Assembly (NCBI RefSeq): GCF_900110535.1
Contig: NZ_FOJA01000001.1
Span: 744,001 to 808,000, forward strand
Length of the DNA stretch: 64,000 nucleotides
Direction: 5' to 3'
Origin: Halobacterium jilantaiense
Lineage (GTDB): Archaea > Halobacteriota > Halobacteria > Halobacteriales > Halobacteriaceae
The notes below the pieces were generated by a model. It searched no databases. It worked only from the letters and a program-made list of their open reading frames with translations, and was not told where the DNA came from. A program made the translations under genes and the position numbers. Every line of letters starts with the position of its first letter. Position 1 is the first letter of the stretch. This document shows positions 35,419-39,213 of this stretch, one piece after another.

Positions 35419-36234
35419 CTACTGCAGGCGCTCGATGGTCTCCACGAGCGGGTGTCGTGCGTAATCCACGACGTCGATGTCCTCGATGGAGTCGAGGTCT
35501 TCTTTCTCCGCGGTCCGCGCCATCCCGAGGTCCACGGCGCGCTCGAGCACGATGACGTAGGCGTCCATCTCCTCGACGCCGGCACGCTCGGACGCCATCA
35601 CGCGGTGGTGGCCGTCCGCCAGCAGGAGGCTGCCGTCGTCGCCAGTGCTGCCGTTGTCGATGACGACGAGCGGTTCGGCCAGCCCATGTTCGAGTTCGTA
35701 CCGGCGGCCTTCGAGCTCGTCGGCGTACACCTTCCCCTGAGTCGGTACCAGCTCACCCAAGTCGACCGTGCGGCGCTCCTCCGTGGCGTCGACGCCGTGA
35801 ATCGTCTCCAGTGTGCGCTTGAGCTTCCCGACCTTCTCCGGGGTCGCGCGCTCGATCTGAGAGCGAATGACATCCGCGTTCGCGATGATGCCGACGAGGT
35901 TGCCCGCGTCGTCGACGACCGGGAGCTTCTGGATGCCCGATCGAAGGATGACTCGGGCCGCGTCGGTCACCTTCATGTCTGGGTGCGCGACCACGATGTC
36001 CTCCGTCATCACCTTGAACAACAGCTCCTGCGGGTCCGCCAGCAAGAGGTCGCGCGCGGACACGAACCCTTCGACGTGCCGACCCTCCGTCACCGGGAAG
36101 CCGTTGTGTTCGCTCTCGGAGATGCGTCGCGCCACGTCCTCCACGGTGTCGTCGGGAGACACCGTCGCCACGTCCCGGGTCATGTACTCCCCGACGACGG
36201 GCTTGTCGCCGTTGTGCTCCAGCGCCTCGTCCAT
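35419..36234 (-). CDS. CBS-domain pair fused to a ParB/sulfiredoxin-like domain
   Basis: 271 residues. Two CBS domains (about 10-65 and 70-125; MTRDVATVSPDDTVEDVARR and MTEDIVVAHPDMKVTDAARV) likely bind an adenine nucleotide. The C-terminal part from about 150 resembles the ParB N-terminal/Srx fold: VYADELEGRRYELEHGLAEP and LLLADGHHRVMAS, the GHHR motif being the nucleotide/phosphate site. Start MDEALEHN at 36234 is favoured over an upstream GTG because a TATA-like CTATTT lies 29 bases before it. The DHH gene is 33 bases upstream. Confidence 0.82.
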   Translation of the reverse strand: MDEALEHNGDKPVVGEYMTRDVATVSPDDTVEDVARRISESEHNGFPVTEGRHVEGFVSARDLLLADPQELLFKVMTEDIVVAHPDMKVTDAARVILRSGIQKLPVVDDAGNLVGIIANADVIRSQIERATPEKVGKLKRTLETIHGVDATEERRTVDLGELVPTQGKVYADELEGRRYELEHGLAEPLVVIDNGSTGDDGSLLLADGHHRVMASERAGVEEMDAYVIVLERAVDLGMARTAEKEDLDSIEDIDVVDYARHPLVETIERLQ

Positions 36235-36267
36235 TACTCGCCCGTACGTCACCGACTGGGAAATAGC

Positions 36268-37677
36268 TCACCCAGCCCGAACCGCCTCGAAGAAGCGTGT
36301 CGCCACCACGTCCTCGACCATCTCCGTCAGCGTCGCCTCCGCCTCCCCACCGACCTCGTCGAAGAGACCGAGTGGCAACTGCGCGCCCGCCATGTCGGCG
36401 TGCCCGCCGGCGGAGCCGAGTTCACCGAACGCCGACCGCAACACCTCGCCGAGGTCTACGTCGCTCCCCCGAGAGCGCGCGGACACGTAGATGGTGCCCT
36501 CGAAGTACCCGTAGACGAACGTCACCGTCACGCCACGCATCGCCAGCAACCGGTCGGCGGCCTGCGCGAGCGTGTCCCGGTCCGCAATCTGACCGACGCA
36601 CGATGCCAGCACCGACCCGTCGAGTTCGCGGCTGCGGATGGCGCGCGCGATGGTGTCGAACGTGTCCGCGCTCATCGACGGGCTCTCGATGCGCTCGAGG
36701 ACGTCCGTGTCCGCCTGCGGGAGCAGCCACGCGCCCGCCTCGAAGTCCTGCGTCGTGATTTCGCGCGCGAAATCCTTCGTGTCGATTCGGATGCCGTACA
36801 GCAGCGCCGTCGCCACGTTCGTCTCCAGGTCGATACCGTACCCGCGGAGGTACTCCACGAGGATGGTGCTCGCCGCACCCGTCTCCTCGCGGATGTCCAC
36901 GAAGTCCGCGTCCACGTCGGTCTTCGGTGGGTGGTGGTCGATCACGATGGAGACGTCCGTATCTGGGTCGAGTTGATCGTTTACCCCGGGCCCGGAGTGG
37001 TCGACGAGTGCGATTGCGCCGTACGAGAACTCCTCGTCCGGCTCGAGGTTCCGCACATCGAGGTCCAGGAGGTTCACGAATGCGCGGTTCTCTTGGTGTG
37101 AGATCTCTCCGAAGTAGCAGGCCTCGCTCTCCACGCCGACGTCTTCCGCGATGTGCTGGAGTCCGACCGCGGCCGCGATGGCGTCCGGGTCCGGGTTGTC
37201 GTGCATGAACACGCCCAGCGTCCCGTCGATGTCTCCGAGGGTCCCCCGAAGCGCCTGCAGGCGCTCGGATGCGCCGGACGCCGTCACCTCCTCGACGTGG
37301 TCGAGCAGCGCAGCCCCCGGGTCGACGACGCGGTCGGCGAGCCCCGTCACGACAGCCCGGTCGTCGGCTGTCGCCTCGAGCCCGAGGTAGACGACGAGTT
37401 CCGCGTCCGGGTACACCTCGCGGGCGGCCGCCGCCGCGCGCCGATTCTGGCTCGTGACGTCTCCCGCCACGACGACTATGTCGACGTCCATGTCGAGTCG
37501 CTCGATGCTCGTCGGATCGGTGACGTCCCGCACTTCCGCGGCGACCTTCTCGTTCCGCAGGCTCTCCACCCGGCTCTCGTCGGCGTCCAGAACGAACAGC
37601 TCGCCGCGGCGGTCGGCCAGCACCCCCACCAGGGCGTGCCCCGTCGTTCCGCAGCCGAGTACGAGCCGAGAAACCAT
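36268..37677 (-). CDS. TrkA-N/DHH-DHHA1 phosphoesterase
   Basis: 469 residues. Residues 1-130: Rossmann TrkA-N domain (MVSRLVLGCGTTGHALVGVL). Residues about 150-310: DHH phosphoesterase with HDNPDPDAIAAA, LVDHSGPG and IVIDHHPP as metal ligands. C-terminal DHHA1 ends with GSAGGHADMAGA. DHH-DHHA1 enzymes cleave oligoribonucleotides, pAp or cyclic dinucleotides. The Rossmann fusion is a known archaeal form whose substrate I cannot state. Likely in one transcript with the CBS-ParB gene. Confidence 0.9.
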   Translation of the reverse strand: MVSRLVLGCGTTGHALVGVLADRRGELFVLDADESRVESLRNEKVAAEVRDVTDPTSIERLDMDVDIVVVAGDVTSQNRRAAAAAREVYPDAELVVYLGLEATADDRAVVTGLADRVVDPGAALLDHVEEVTASGASERLQALRGTLGDIDGTLGVFMHDNPDPDAIAAAVGLQHIAEDVGVESEACYFGEISHQENRAFVNLLDLDVRNLEPDEEFSYGAIALVDHSGPGVNDQLDPDTDVSIVIDHHPPKTDVDADFVDIREETGAASTILVEYLRGYGIDLETNVATALLYGIRIDTKDFAREITTQDFEAGAWLLPQADTDVLERIESPSMSADTFDTIARAIRSRELDGSVLASCVGQIADRDTLAQAADRLLAMRGVTVTFVYGYFEGTIYVSARSRGSDVDLGEVLRSAFGELGSAGGHADMAGAQLPLGLFDEVGGEAEATLTEMVEDVVATRFFEAVRAG

Positions 37678-37728
37678 TCGTGGTAACGGTACCGACCGCG
37701 GCAGTTAAAAGCTACCGTCCGGCTGGAG

Positions 37729-39213
37729 TCAGCCGAACAGGACGCCAGCGGCGTGGTTCGCGGTCTGCGCGACCGGGTCGAACGCGACCAGAAGCGCGAC
37801 CGTGCCGACCGCAGCGGCCAGCACTGCCACGTAGAGACCGGTCGGCTGCCCCTCCAGCGTGAGGTCGCCGCTCGGGTCCTCGATCCAGATAGCCTTCACG
37901 ACCCGAGAGTAGTAGAACAGCGACAGCGCACTGTTGATGGCCGCGACCGCCGCGAGCCACGCGAACCCGGACTGAACCGCGCCCGCGAACAGCACGTACT
38001 TCGAGAGGAAGCCGCCGCCCACCGGTAGCCCGGCGAGACTGAACATGAACACGGTCATCGCGACGCACGCGACCGGCGCGCGCTCCGCGAGGCCGTTGTA
38101 GTCCTCGAACGTCCGCCCGACGCCCCAGTACTCGGCCAGAGCGACGAACAGGAACGCGCCCGTGTTCATGAAGCCGTAGACGAGCAGGTGCATCATCGAC
38201 GCACCGAGCACGAAGGAGTTCTCCGCGCCCGCGCCGCTCTGCACGGCGGCGAGGCCGATGAGCACGTAGCCCGCGTGCCCGATGCTGGAGTACGCGAGCA
38301 TCCGCTTGACGTTGTCCTGGGTCGCCGCGGCGAAGTTCCCGAGAGTCATCGTGACCACCGCGAGCGCCGCGAACAGCAGCGACCAGTCGATGACGGTTCC
38401 CGAGATGACTTCGAGCGGGAACGCCGTCGTGAACACGCGGAACAGCACGGCGAACCCGGCGGCCTTCGAGGCCGACGAGATGAACGCCGAGACCGGCGCG
38501 GGTGCGCCCTCGTAGGCCTCCGGTGCCCAGAAGTGGAACGGCACGGAAGCGGTCTTGAACGCGAACCCGGCGGCAAGCATCACGACGCCCAGACCGAGCA
38601 CGCCGGTGAACTCGACGCCGTTCCCGAAGCTCTCGGCAATCGGCTGCAGCCCCATGACGCCCGTGGAGGCGTAAACCAGGCTGATGCCGTACACCATGAT
38701 GGCTGAGGACAGCGCGCCGACGAGGAAGTACTTCAGGCCGGCTTCGACGCTGCCGCGGTCCGTCTTCAGGTAAGAGACGAGCACGTACGACGGGATGCTC
38801 GCCAGTTCGAGGCTGATGAACACCGTGACGAGGCTGTTGGCCGACGCCATCAGCGTCATGCCGGTCGCCGCCAGCAGCGTCAGGGCGTAGAACTCCGCGA
38901 CGTGCTGTTGGTCCTTCAGGTAGTCGTGGCTCGCCACGACGACGAGCGTCGCGACGGTGCCGACGACGAACGCGAAGAACAGCGACAGTGCGTCCACGAC
39001 GAGCGCGCCGTCGAACTGCACGAACTGGAAGTCACCGGTGCCCGCCGACAGGAACCACGCGGCGATACCGGCGGTCAGCAGCGTGCCGGCCGCGCTGATA
39101 CCGGCCAGCAGCGTGTTGCTCCGCGAGTCCGGTGTCAGCGTGTCGATACCGAGCACGAGCAGGGCCGTCACGCCCAGCACGAGCTGCGGCGTCAGTGGTG
39201 GGAGTTCCGTCAC
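37729..39213 (-). CDS. nuoN: NADH-quinone oxidoreductase subunit N
   Basis: Antiporter-like membrane subunit of complex I, 494 residues with about 14 TM helices. The Lys/Glu of the proton path lie in LLAATGMTL...LELASIPSYVLVSYLKTD and LAYSSIGHAGYVLIGL, typical of NuoN. Starts with GTG at 39213 overlapping the nuoM stop (GTGA). Last gene of the nuo operon. Confidence 0.95.
   Translation of the reverse strand: MTELPPLTPQLVLGVTALLVLGIDTLTPDSRSNTLLAGISAAGTLLTAGIAAWFLSAGTGDFQFVQFDGALVVDALSLFFAFVVGTVATLVVVASHDYLKDQQHVAEFYALTLLAATGMTLMASANSLVTVFISLELASIPSYVLVSYLKTDRGSVEAGLKYFLVGALSSAIMVYGISLVYASTGVMGLQPIAESFGNGVEFTGVLGLGVVMLAAGFAFKTASVPFHFWAPEAYEGAPAPVSAFISSASKAAGFAVLFRVFTTAFPLEVISGTVIDWSLLFAALAVVTMTLGNFAAATQDNVKRMLAYSSIGHAGYVLIGLAAVQSGAGAENSFVLGASMMHLLVYGFMNTGAFLFVALAEYWGVGRTFEDYNGLAERAPVACVAMTVFMFSLAGLPVGGGFLSKYVLFAGAVQSGFAWLAAVAAINSALSLFYYSRVVKAIWIEDPSGDLTLEGQPTGLYVAVLAAAVGTVALLVAFDPVAQTANHAAGVLFG

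Follow-up and report, generated by a model that had tools for sequence, protein, structure and literature searches.

The window, as we call the whole 64,000-nucleotide stretch of DNA analysed here, is a segment of a Halobacterium chromosome, and its closest named relatives are Halobacterium too. Its minus strand carries a gene for a TrkA_N-DHH-DHHA1 protein (TrkA-DHH), which is adjoined by nuoN on its upstream side and followed downstream by a gene whose product combines two CBS domains with a ParB/Srx-fold domain (CBS-ParB). Both genes lie where the initial annotation had placed them, and the spacing of 33 bases that it gave holds with the ATG start of CBS-ParB (36234), which homologues favour over the GTG at 36252; the GTG would leave 15 bases. 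In the following list residues of CBS-ParB are counted from the GTG start.

37705..37740, minus strand: terminator-like hairpin (37715-37740) at the nuoN end and TTTTAA box (37705-37710), both as predicted from the sequence
36268..37677, minus strand: TrkA_N-DHH-DHHA1 phosphoesterase gene (copy A), ATG at 37677, 469 aa; catalytic positions conserved in 74 of 74 copies
37390..37665, minus strand: TrkA_N (Rossmann) domain, residues 5-96; Pfam E-value 2e-10; GCGTTG and Asp31 intact in the window copy
36790..37212, minus strand: DHH catalytic domain, residues 156-296; Pfam E-value 6e-11; motifs HDNPDPD, VDHS, DHH and GIRIDT
36352..36618, minus strand: DHHA1 domain with AGGH motif, residues 354-442; Pfam E-value 2e-15; H426 invariant
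36235..36267, minus strand: intergenic gap of 33 bases between the DHH gene and CBS-ParB, from the sequence and the ATG start backed by homologues
35419..36234, minus strand: CBS-CBS-ParB/Srx-fold gene, 271 aa from the ATG or 277 aa from the alternative GTG
36037..36195, minus strand: CBS domain 1, residues 20-72; SARD adenosine motif
35851..36021, minus strand: CBS domain 2, residues 78-134; ANAD in the window, [ST]NxD in relatives
35539..35781, minus strand: ParB/Srx-fold domain core, residues 158-238; model with pLDDT 87 and PDB matches; profile matches to ParB and SerK
35737..35745, minus strand: PTQ motif, residues 170-172; 44 of 44 sequences, with Gln where SerK has Glu30
35602..35616, minus strand: DGHHR nucleotide P motif (GxxR), residues 213-217; 44 of 44 sequences, identical in SerK

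The hairpin at the nuoN end and the TTTTAA box about 30 nt ahead of the ATG of the DHH gene together probably mark a transcript start, which suggests that the DHH gene and CBS-ParB form one transcript here and are probably co-transcribed in Halobacterium. The promoter scan is modelled on bacterial sigma-70, a range that does not extend to archaea.

TrkA-DHH and its two haloarchaeal copies

The initial annotation had recognised in the DHH-DHHA1 domains the fold of cyclic-dinucleotide phosphodiesterases, and this is borne out by the best-matching solved structures, which are c-di-AMP and cyclic-dinucleotide phosphodiesterases with a c-di-AMP phosphodiesterase as the top PDB match (E 5e-17). All DHH/DHHA1 catalytic positions, that is the metal ligands of motifs I-IV and the GGH of DHHA1, are kept in the 74 copies of the type found in the window (copy A). 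The DHH-DHHA1 core and all catalytic motifs are common to copy A and the GdpP/DhhP c-di-AMP phosphodiesterases, whereas the N-terminal part differs, being a TrkA_N Rossmann domain in copy A and PAS/GGDEF or membrane parts in GdpP/DhhP. We regard copy A as a probable c-di-AMP/pApA phosphodiesterase, which would be an active, metal-dependent DHH-DHHA1 enzyme with c-di-AMP and/or its product pApA as the likeliest substrate. However, an NrnA-type nanoRNase or pAp activity would be compatible with the same motifs, since one fold serves all of these enzymes, and there are weak matches of the window protein to the NrnA, Mn-pyrophosphatase and RecJ_archaeal models. The weak RecJ_archaeal match led us to drop a RecJ/Cdc45-type nuclease as first choice. 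That the protein is an NrnA-like nanoRNase/pAp phosphatase or a RecJ-like nuclease with no role in c-di-AMP metabolism at all seems to us doubtful, though it deserves serious attention, as the top solved-structure matches are cyclic-dinucleotide phosphodiesterases and as the joint loss with the diadenylate cyclase described below would be unexpected for a general RNA or pAp enzyme. In three genomes of genus g10 (G004, G021, G033) copy A aligns with the window protein only from about residue 120-138, the TrkA_N domain being lost or unrecognisable.

Haloarchaea have two full-length TrkA-DHH genes, copy A and a copy B. In the tree, copy A forms a clade of its own while copy B joins the single copy of the methanogen side (support 100/100). 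The Rossmann site is decaying in copy A, where Gly13 is kept in 49 and Asp31 in 11 of the 74 sequences, and intact in all 34 copies B. Copy B is altered in the active site instead: Glu replaces Asp299 in 34 of 34 sequences, and the second His of the DHH motif is gone in most of them. Glu at position 299 also occurs in two of ten methanogen-side copies. As judged from these residues, of the two haloarchaeal copies only copy A has its active site intact, which makes copy A the likelier haloarchaeal phosphodiesterase despite the closer orthology of copy B. Copy B is possibly a regulatory pseudoenzyme, and the two copies appear to have divided their tasks, one being an active enzyme and the other a partner that binds nucleotides. 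In the genome of the window, copy B is located at G000:C1:406155-407534 (L195, L215).

Co-occurrence with the diadenylate cyclase

Of the 393 genomes of the phylum, 351 contain the diadenylate cyclase (DAC) domain. When only good genomes are considered (completeness of 90% or more, contamination of 5% or less), 88 of 90 cyclase-positive genomes carry TrkA-DHH as against 5 of 24 cyclase-negative ones, the former drawn from a 120-genome sample and the latter comprising all cyclase-negative genomes among the 393, with weak DHH-only matches that lack the TrkA part scored as absent. The significance of this association (Fisher p 4e-15) is inflated by kinship, and independent joint losses of cyclase and TrkA-DHH are few, namely those in family f33, which has neither, and in genus g73, where the two cyclase-positive genomes carry TrkA-DHH and all eight cyclase-negative ones are without it. 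CBS-ParB, which served as a control, is present in all genomes of g73 irrespective of the cyclase, whereas in family f19 cyclase and TrkA-DHH are present and CBS-ParB is mostly absent. From this reciprocal pattern it follows that TrkA-DHH tracks c-di-AMP and that CBS-ParB does not; a role of CBS-ParB as a c-di-AMP receptor is disfavoured because the protein is retained in cyclase-negative genomes. The exceptions are five good cyclase-negative genomes that retain TrkA-DHH (G167, G179, G226, G297, G304) and two good genomes that possess the cyclase and give no TrkA-DHH match (G151, G191), in which another phosphodiesterase may be at work. It speaks against copy A as the c-di-AMP enzyme, however, that the co-occurrence derives mainly from the single methanogen-side copy, which is sister to copy B, so that copy A may have switched substrate.

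c-di-AMP is reported to be essential in Haloferax volcanii, and as of 2021 the haloarchaeal enzyme degrading it had not been identified (PMC8646023, PMC8305020). HVO_0756, HVO_0990 and HVO_1690 of Haloferax were predicted as candidates (PMC8305020), and the function proposed for them is the same as that which we propose for copy A. Beyond that prediction, the phyletic co-loss of TrkA-DHH with the cyclase, the intact as opposed to altered active sites and the way in which the two copies have divided active and sensor sites among themselves are new here. Cyclase co-loss and intact active site single out copy A as the first candidate for a c-di-AMP phosphodiesterase.

CBS-ParB and the activities of its fold relatives

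The CBS pair, which the initial annotation had noted as a predicted adenine-nucleotide sensor, is readily recognised in the window protein (7e-28), and nearly all relatives have the [ST]xxD adenosine motif in each of the two domains. In CBS domain 2 of the window protein the motif contains Ala124 (35881-35883), a position taken by Ser or Thr in 38 of 38 relatives compared. This domain is the best-conserved part of the protein, with 65% identity between haloarchaea and methanogens, as compared to about 50% between haloarchaeal CBS-ParB and its methanogen-side relatives overall. The assignment of the other half to the ParB/Srx type, also made in the initial annotation, is weak in a single-sequence search, where it stays below threshold (ParBc_2, E 0.1), but is supported by a profile of 44 relatives, which finds bacterial ParB (5e-5) as well as SerK and SbnI, the latter two weakly. 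In a whole-protein fold search all matches were dominated by the CBS domains, the closest being AMP-binding CBS pairs, with DarB and OpuCA structures also among them; the C-terminal domain was therefore modelled alone (pLDDT 87, pTM 0.80). Among its PDB matches, those with Z between 10.2 and 6.1 comprise Atu1540, Srx, SerK/SbnI and ParB relatives. Such middling Z values are weak taken singly, yet all matches down to Z 6 are of one fold, and the modelled domain is accordingly assigned to the ParB/Srx fold.

All 44 sequences share the signature PTQ...DEL.GR.YE...EP...DGHHR...HPL without variation, and such constraint hints at either an enzyme or a tight switch. We consider CBS-ParB a probable adenine-nucleotide-gated NTP-binding protein, whose CBS pair would bind AMP, ADP or ATP and gate the ParB/Srx-fold domain, which in turn would bind an NTP through DGHHR. 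The sequence of a ParB-fold domain does not reveal its nucleotide specificity (PMC12704722).

Fold and GxxR nucleotide motif are common to CBS-ParB and the canonical ParB/Noc CTPases; the latter, however, have GExR in place of GHHR, as well as an HTH and a dimerisation domain. In a Pfam search CBS-ParB matched only CBS and, weakly, ParBc_2, with no match to an HTH, and it ends about 40 residues past the fold core, too short for a dimerisation domain. A ParABS partition role was rejected on these grounds. Sulfiredoxin has its catalytic Cys in a GCHR motif. No conserved Cys was found in the corresponding domain of CBS-ParB, where GHHR is invariant, and this reading was rejected too.

The free serine kinase SerK (TK0378; PMC5120207; PDB 5x0b, 5x0j) has the same fold and an identical VDGHHR. 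CBS-ParB might be a CBS-regulated kinase of free serine that feeds O-phosphoserine into cysteine synthesis, and the NCBIfam SerK model does match 13 of 31 CBS-ParB members; these matches, however, are weak and far below the cut-off, and none was obtained in the genome of the window. Moreover, the catalytic Glu30 of SerK, identified from the solved E30Q and E30A mutant structures, pairs with the invariant Gln of PTQ (44 of 44) in the HMMER and hhalign alignments and with a variable, non-acidic position in that of MAFFT. As the acid is missing in all three alignments, SerK-type catalysis is unlikely, and the suggestion of the initial annotation that the ParB-like domain might act as a kinase is not upheld in this sense. 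CBS-ParB further differs from SerK in the CBS pair placed in front and in its lack of SerK-like neighbours, no serine or cysteine genes having been found among the neighbours checked. We thus give the serine kinase very little credence.

The Gln itself may have a counterpart elsewhere. Gln52 of Myxococcus xanthus ParB is the Gln of CTP hydrolysis (PMC12462528), its position being confirmed from the Q52A entry, and both HMMER and MAFFT pair it with the PTQ Gln; the hhalign alignment differs, a matter that hinges on the placement of a short gap. By these alignments the PTQ Gln may correspond to the catalytic Gln52.

A recent survey (Kaljevic et al., 2025, PMC12704722) covers fusions of the ParB-CTPase fold with CBS domains, which in archaea are the most frequent type of fusion with this fold and have the same architecture, lineages (Methanobacteriota, Haloarchaea) and chromosomal location as CBS-ParB of the window. 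With these fusions surveyed and the HVO candidates predicted, both kinds of protein are already known. The parts of the survey used here mention neither neighbours nor a ligand or active-site residues of the CBS fusion, to which we add the invariant PTQ/DGHHR signature, the linkage and the fact that CBS-ParB occurs irrespective of the cyclase; we found no assigned function for CBS-ParB in the literature. Further additions are the Gln found in place of SerK Glu30 and the evidence, given below, against an obligate gene-pair unit. Our results speak against CBS-ParB being a serine kinase or having an obligate role connected with c-di-AMP.

Gene linkage and its meaning

All 122 good-quality genomes of the order contain both TrkA-DHH and CBS-ParB, and in 110 of the 133 haloarchaea with both genes the DHH gene lies directly upstream of CBS-ParB on the same strand and in the same order. 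Conservation and pairing are far beyond chance. The gene-pairing survey that the initial annotation had proposed thus finds the pair upheld in most haloarchaea but broken in Halorubrum, where the genes lie apart, and on the methanogen side, where no DHH gene was found near CBS-ParB in any of the 19 loci examined.

But does the pairing make the two genes one signalling unit, a possibility raised in the initial annotation? In such a unit CBS-ParB would respond to adenylate charge or c-di-AMP and regulate the adjoining DHH enzyme. The conserved arrangement, the gap of at most 33 bases in the window and the ability of CBS pairs to bind c-di-AMP, as illustrated by DarB and OpuCA among the fold matches, are in favour of it, and an outside sensor could have replaced the decaying Rossmann site of copy A. 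Yet the adjacency breaks as described, the gap across haloarchaea is mostly 100-300 bases, and the two genes respond in opposite ways to loss of the cyclase, which CBS-ParB survives. Moreover, in 68 long loci nuoN adjoins the DHH gene about as often (49) as the latter adjoins CBS-ParB (53), so that linkage alone is no sign of a functional unit, and we dropped it as functional proof after this control. The signalling unit is therefore improbable in our view, and a direct action of copy A and CBS-ParB on each other is not supported so far.

The linkage is real and old within haloarchaea, but no stronger than that with the respiratory complex. We lean slightly towards its being a leftover of regional gene order (nuoL-M-N, DHH, CBS-ParB) that has no functional meaning for the pair, an explanation with which the equal linkage of nuoN agrees, as does the fact that CBS-ParB, found in 248 of the 393 genomes of the phylum, predates the linkage. 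It is less easily reconciled with the retention of the pairing across most haloarchaeal families and with the poorer conservation of other flanks (methylmalonyl-CoA mutase, ABC transporter). HVO_0990 presumably lies near nuo genes as well, like copy A.

Taken together, we favour the view, which in its entirety we hold with evenly balanced confidence, that the locus encodes two separate, strictly conserved proteins: copy A would be a c-di-AMP/pApA phosphodiesterase and CBS-ParB an adenine-nucleotide-gated NTP binder rather than a SerK-type kinase. A far more speculative scenario, to which we would attach very little weight, is that in haloarchaea an ancestral TrkA-DHH c-di-AMP phosphodiesterase split into a catalytic copy, the one in the window, and a catalytically impaired nucleotide-binding copy, and that the adjoining CBS-gated ParB-fold NTPase switch, with a ParB-like Gln in place of the Glu of SerK, controls c-di-AMP turnover.

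On the methanogen side the neighbours of CBS-ParB include HSP20, HisE-like, NOG1 and nucleotidyltransferase genes and an HrcA-type HTH-CBS regulator, with no pathway apparent; the regulator lies near CBS-ParB in six loci (L170, L174, L177, L181, L182, L184), and in four loci CBS-ParB directly precedes the HisE-like (PRA-PH) gene. Some haloarchaea contain a second, diverged CBS-ParB copy (L044, L045) with 45-47% identity, and a diverged copy is located on the Halobellus limi plasmid NZ_CP031312.1 (182247-183029). At L045 the second CBS-ParB copy has a B-type TrkA-DHH gene at a distance of about 7 kb.
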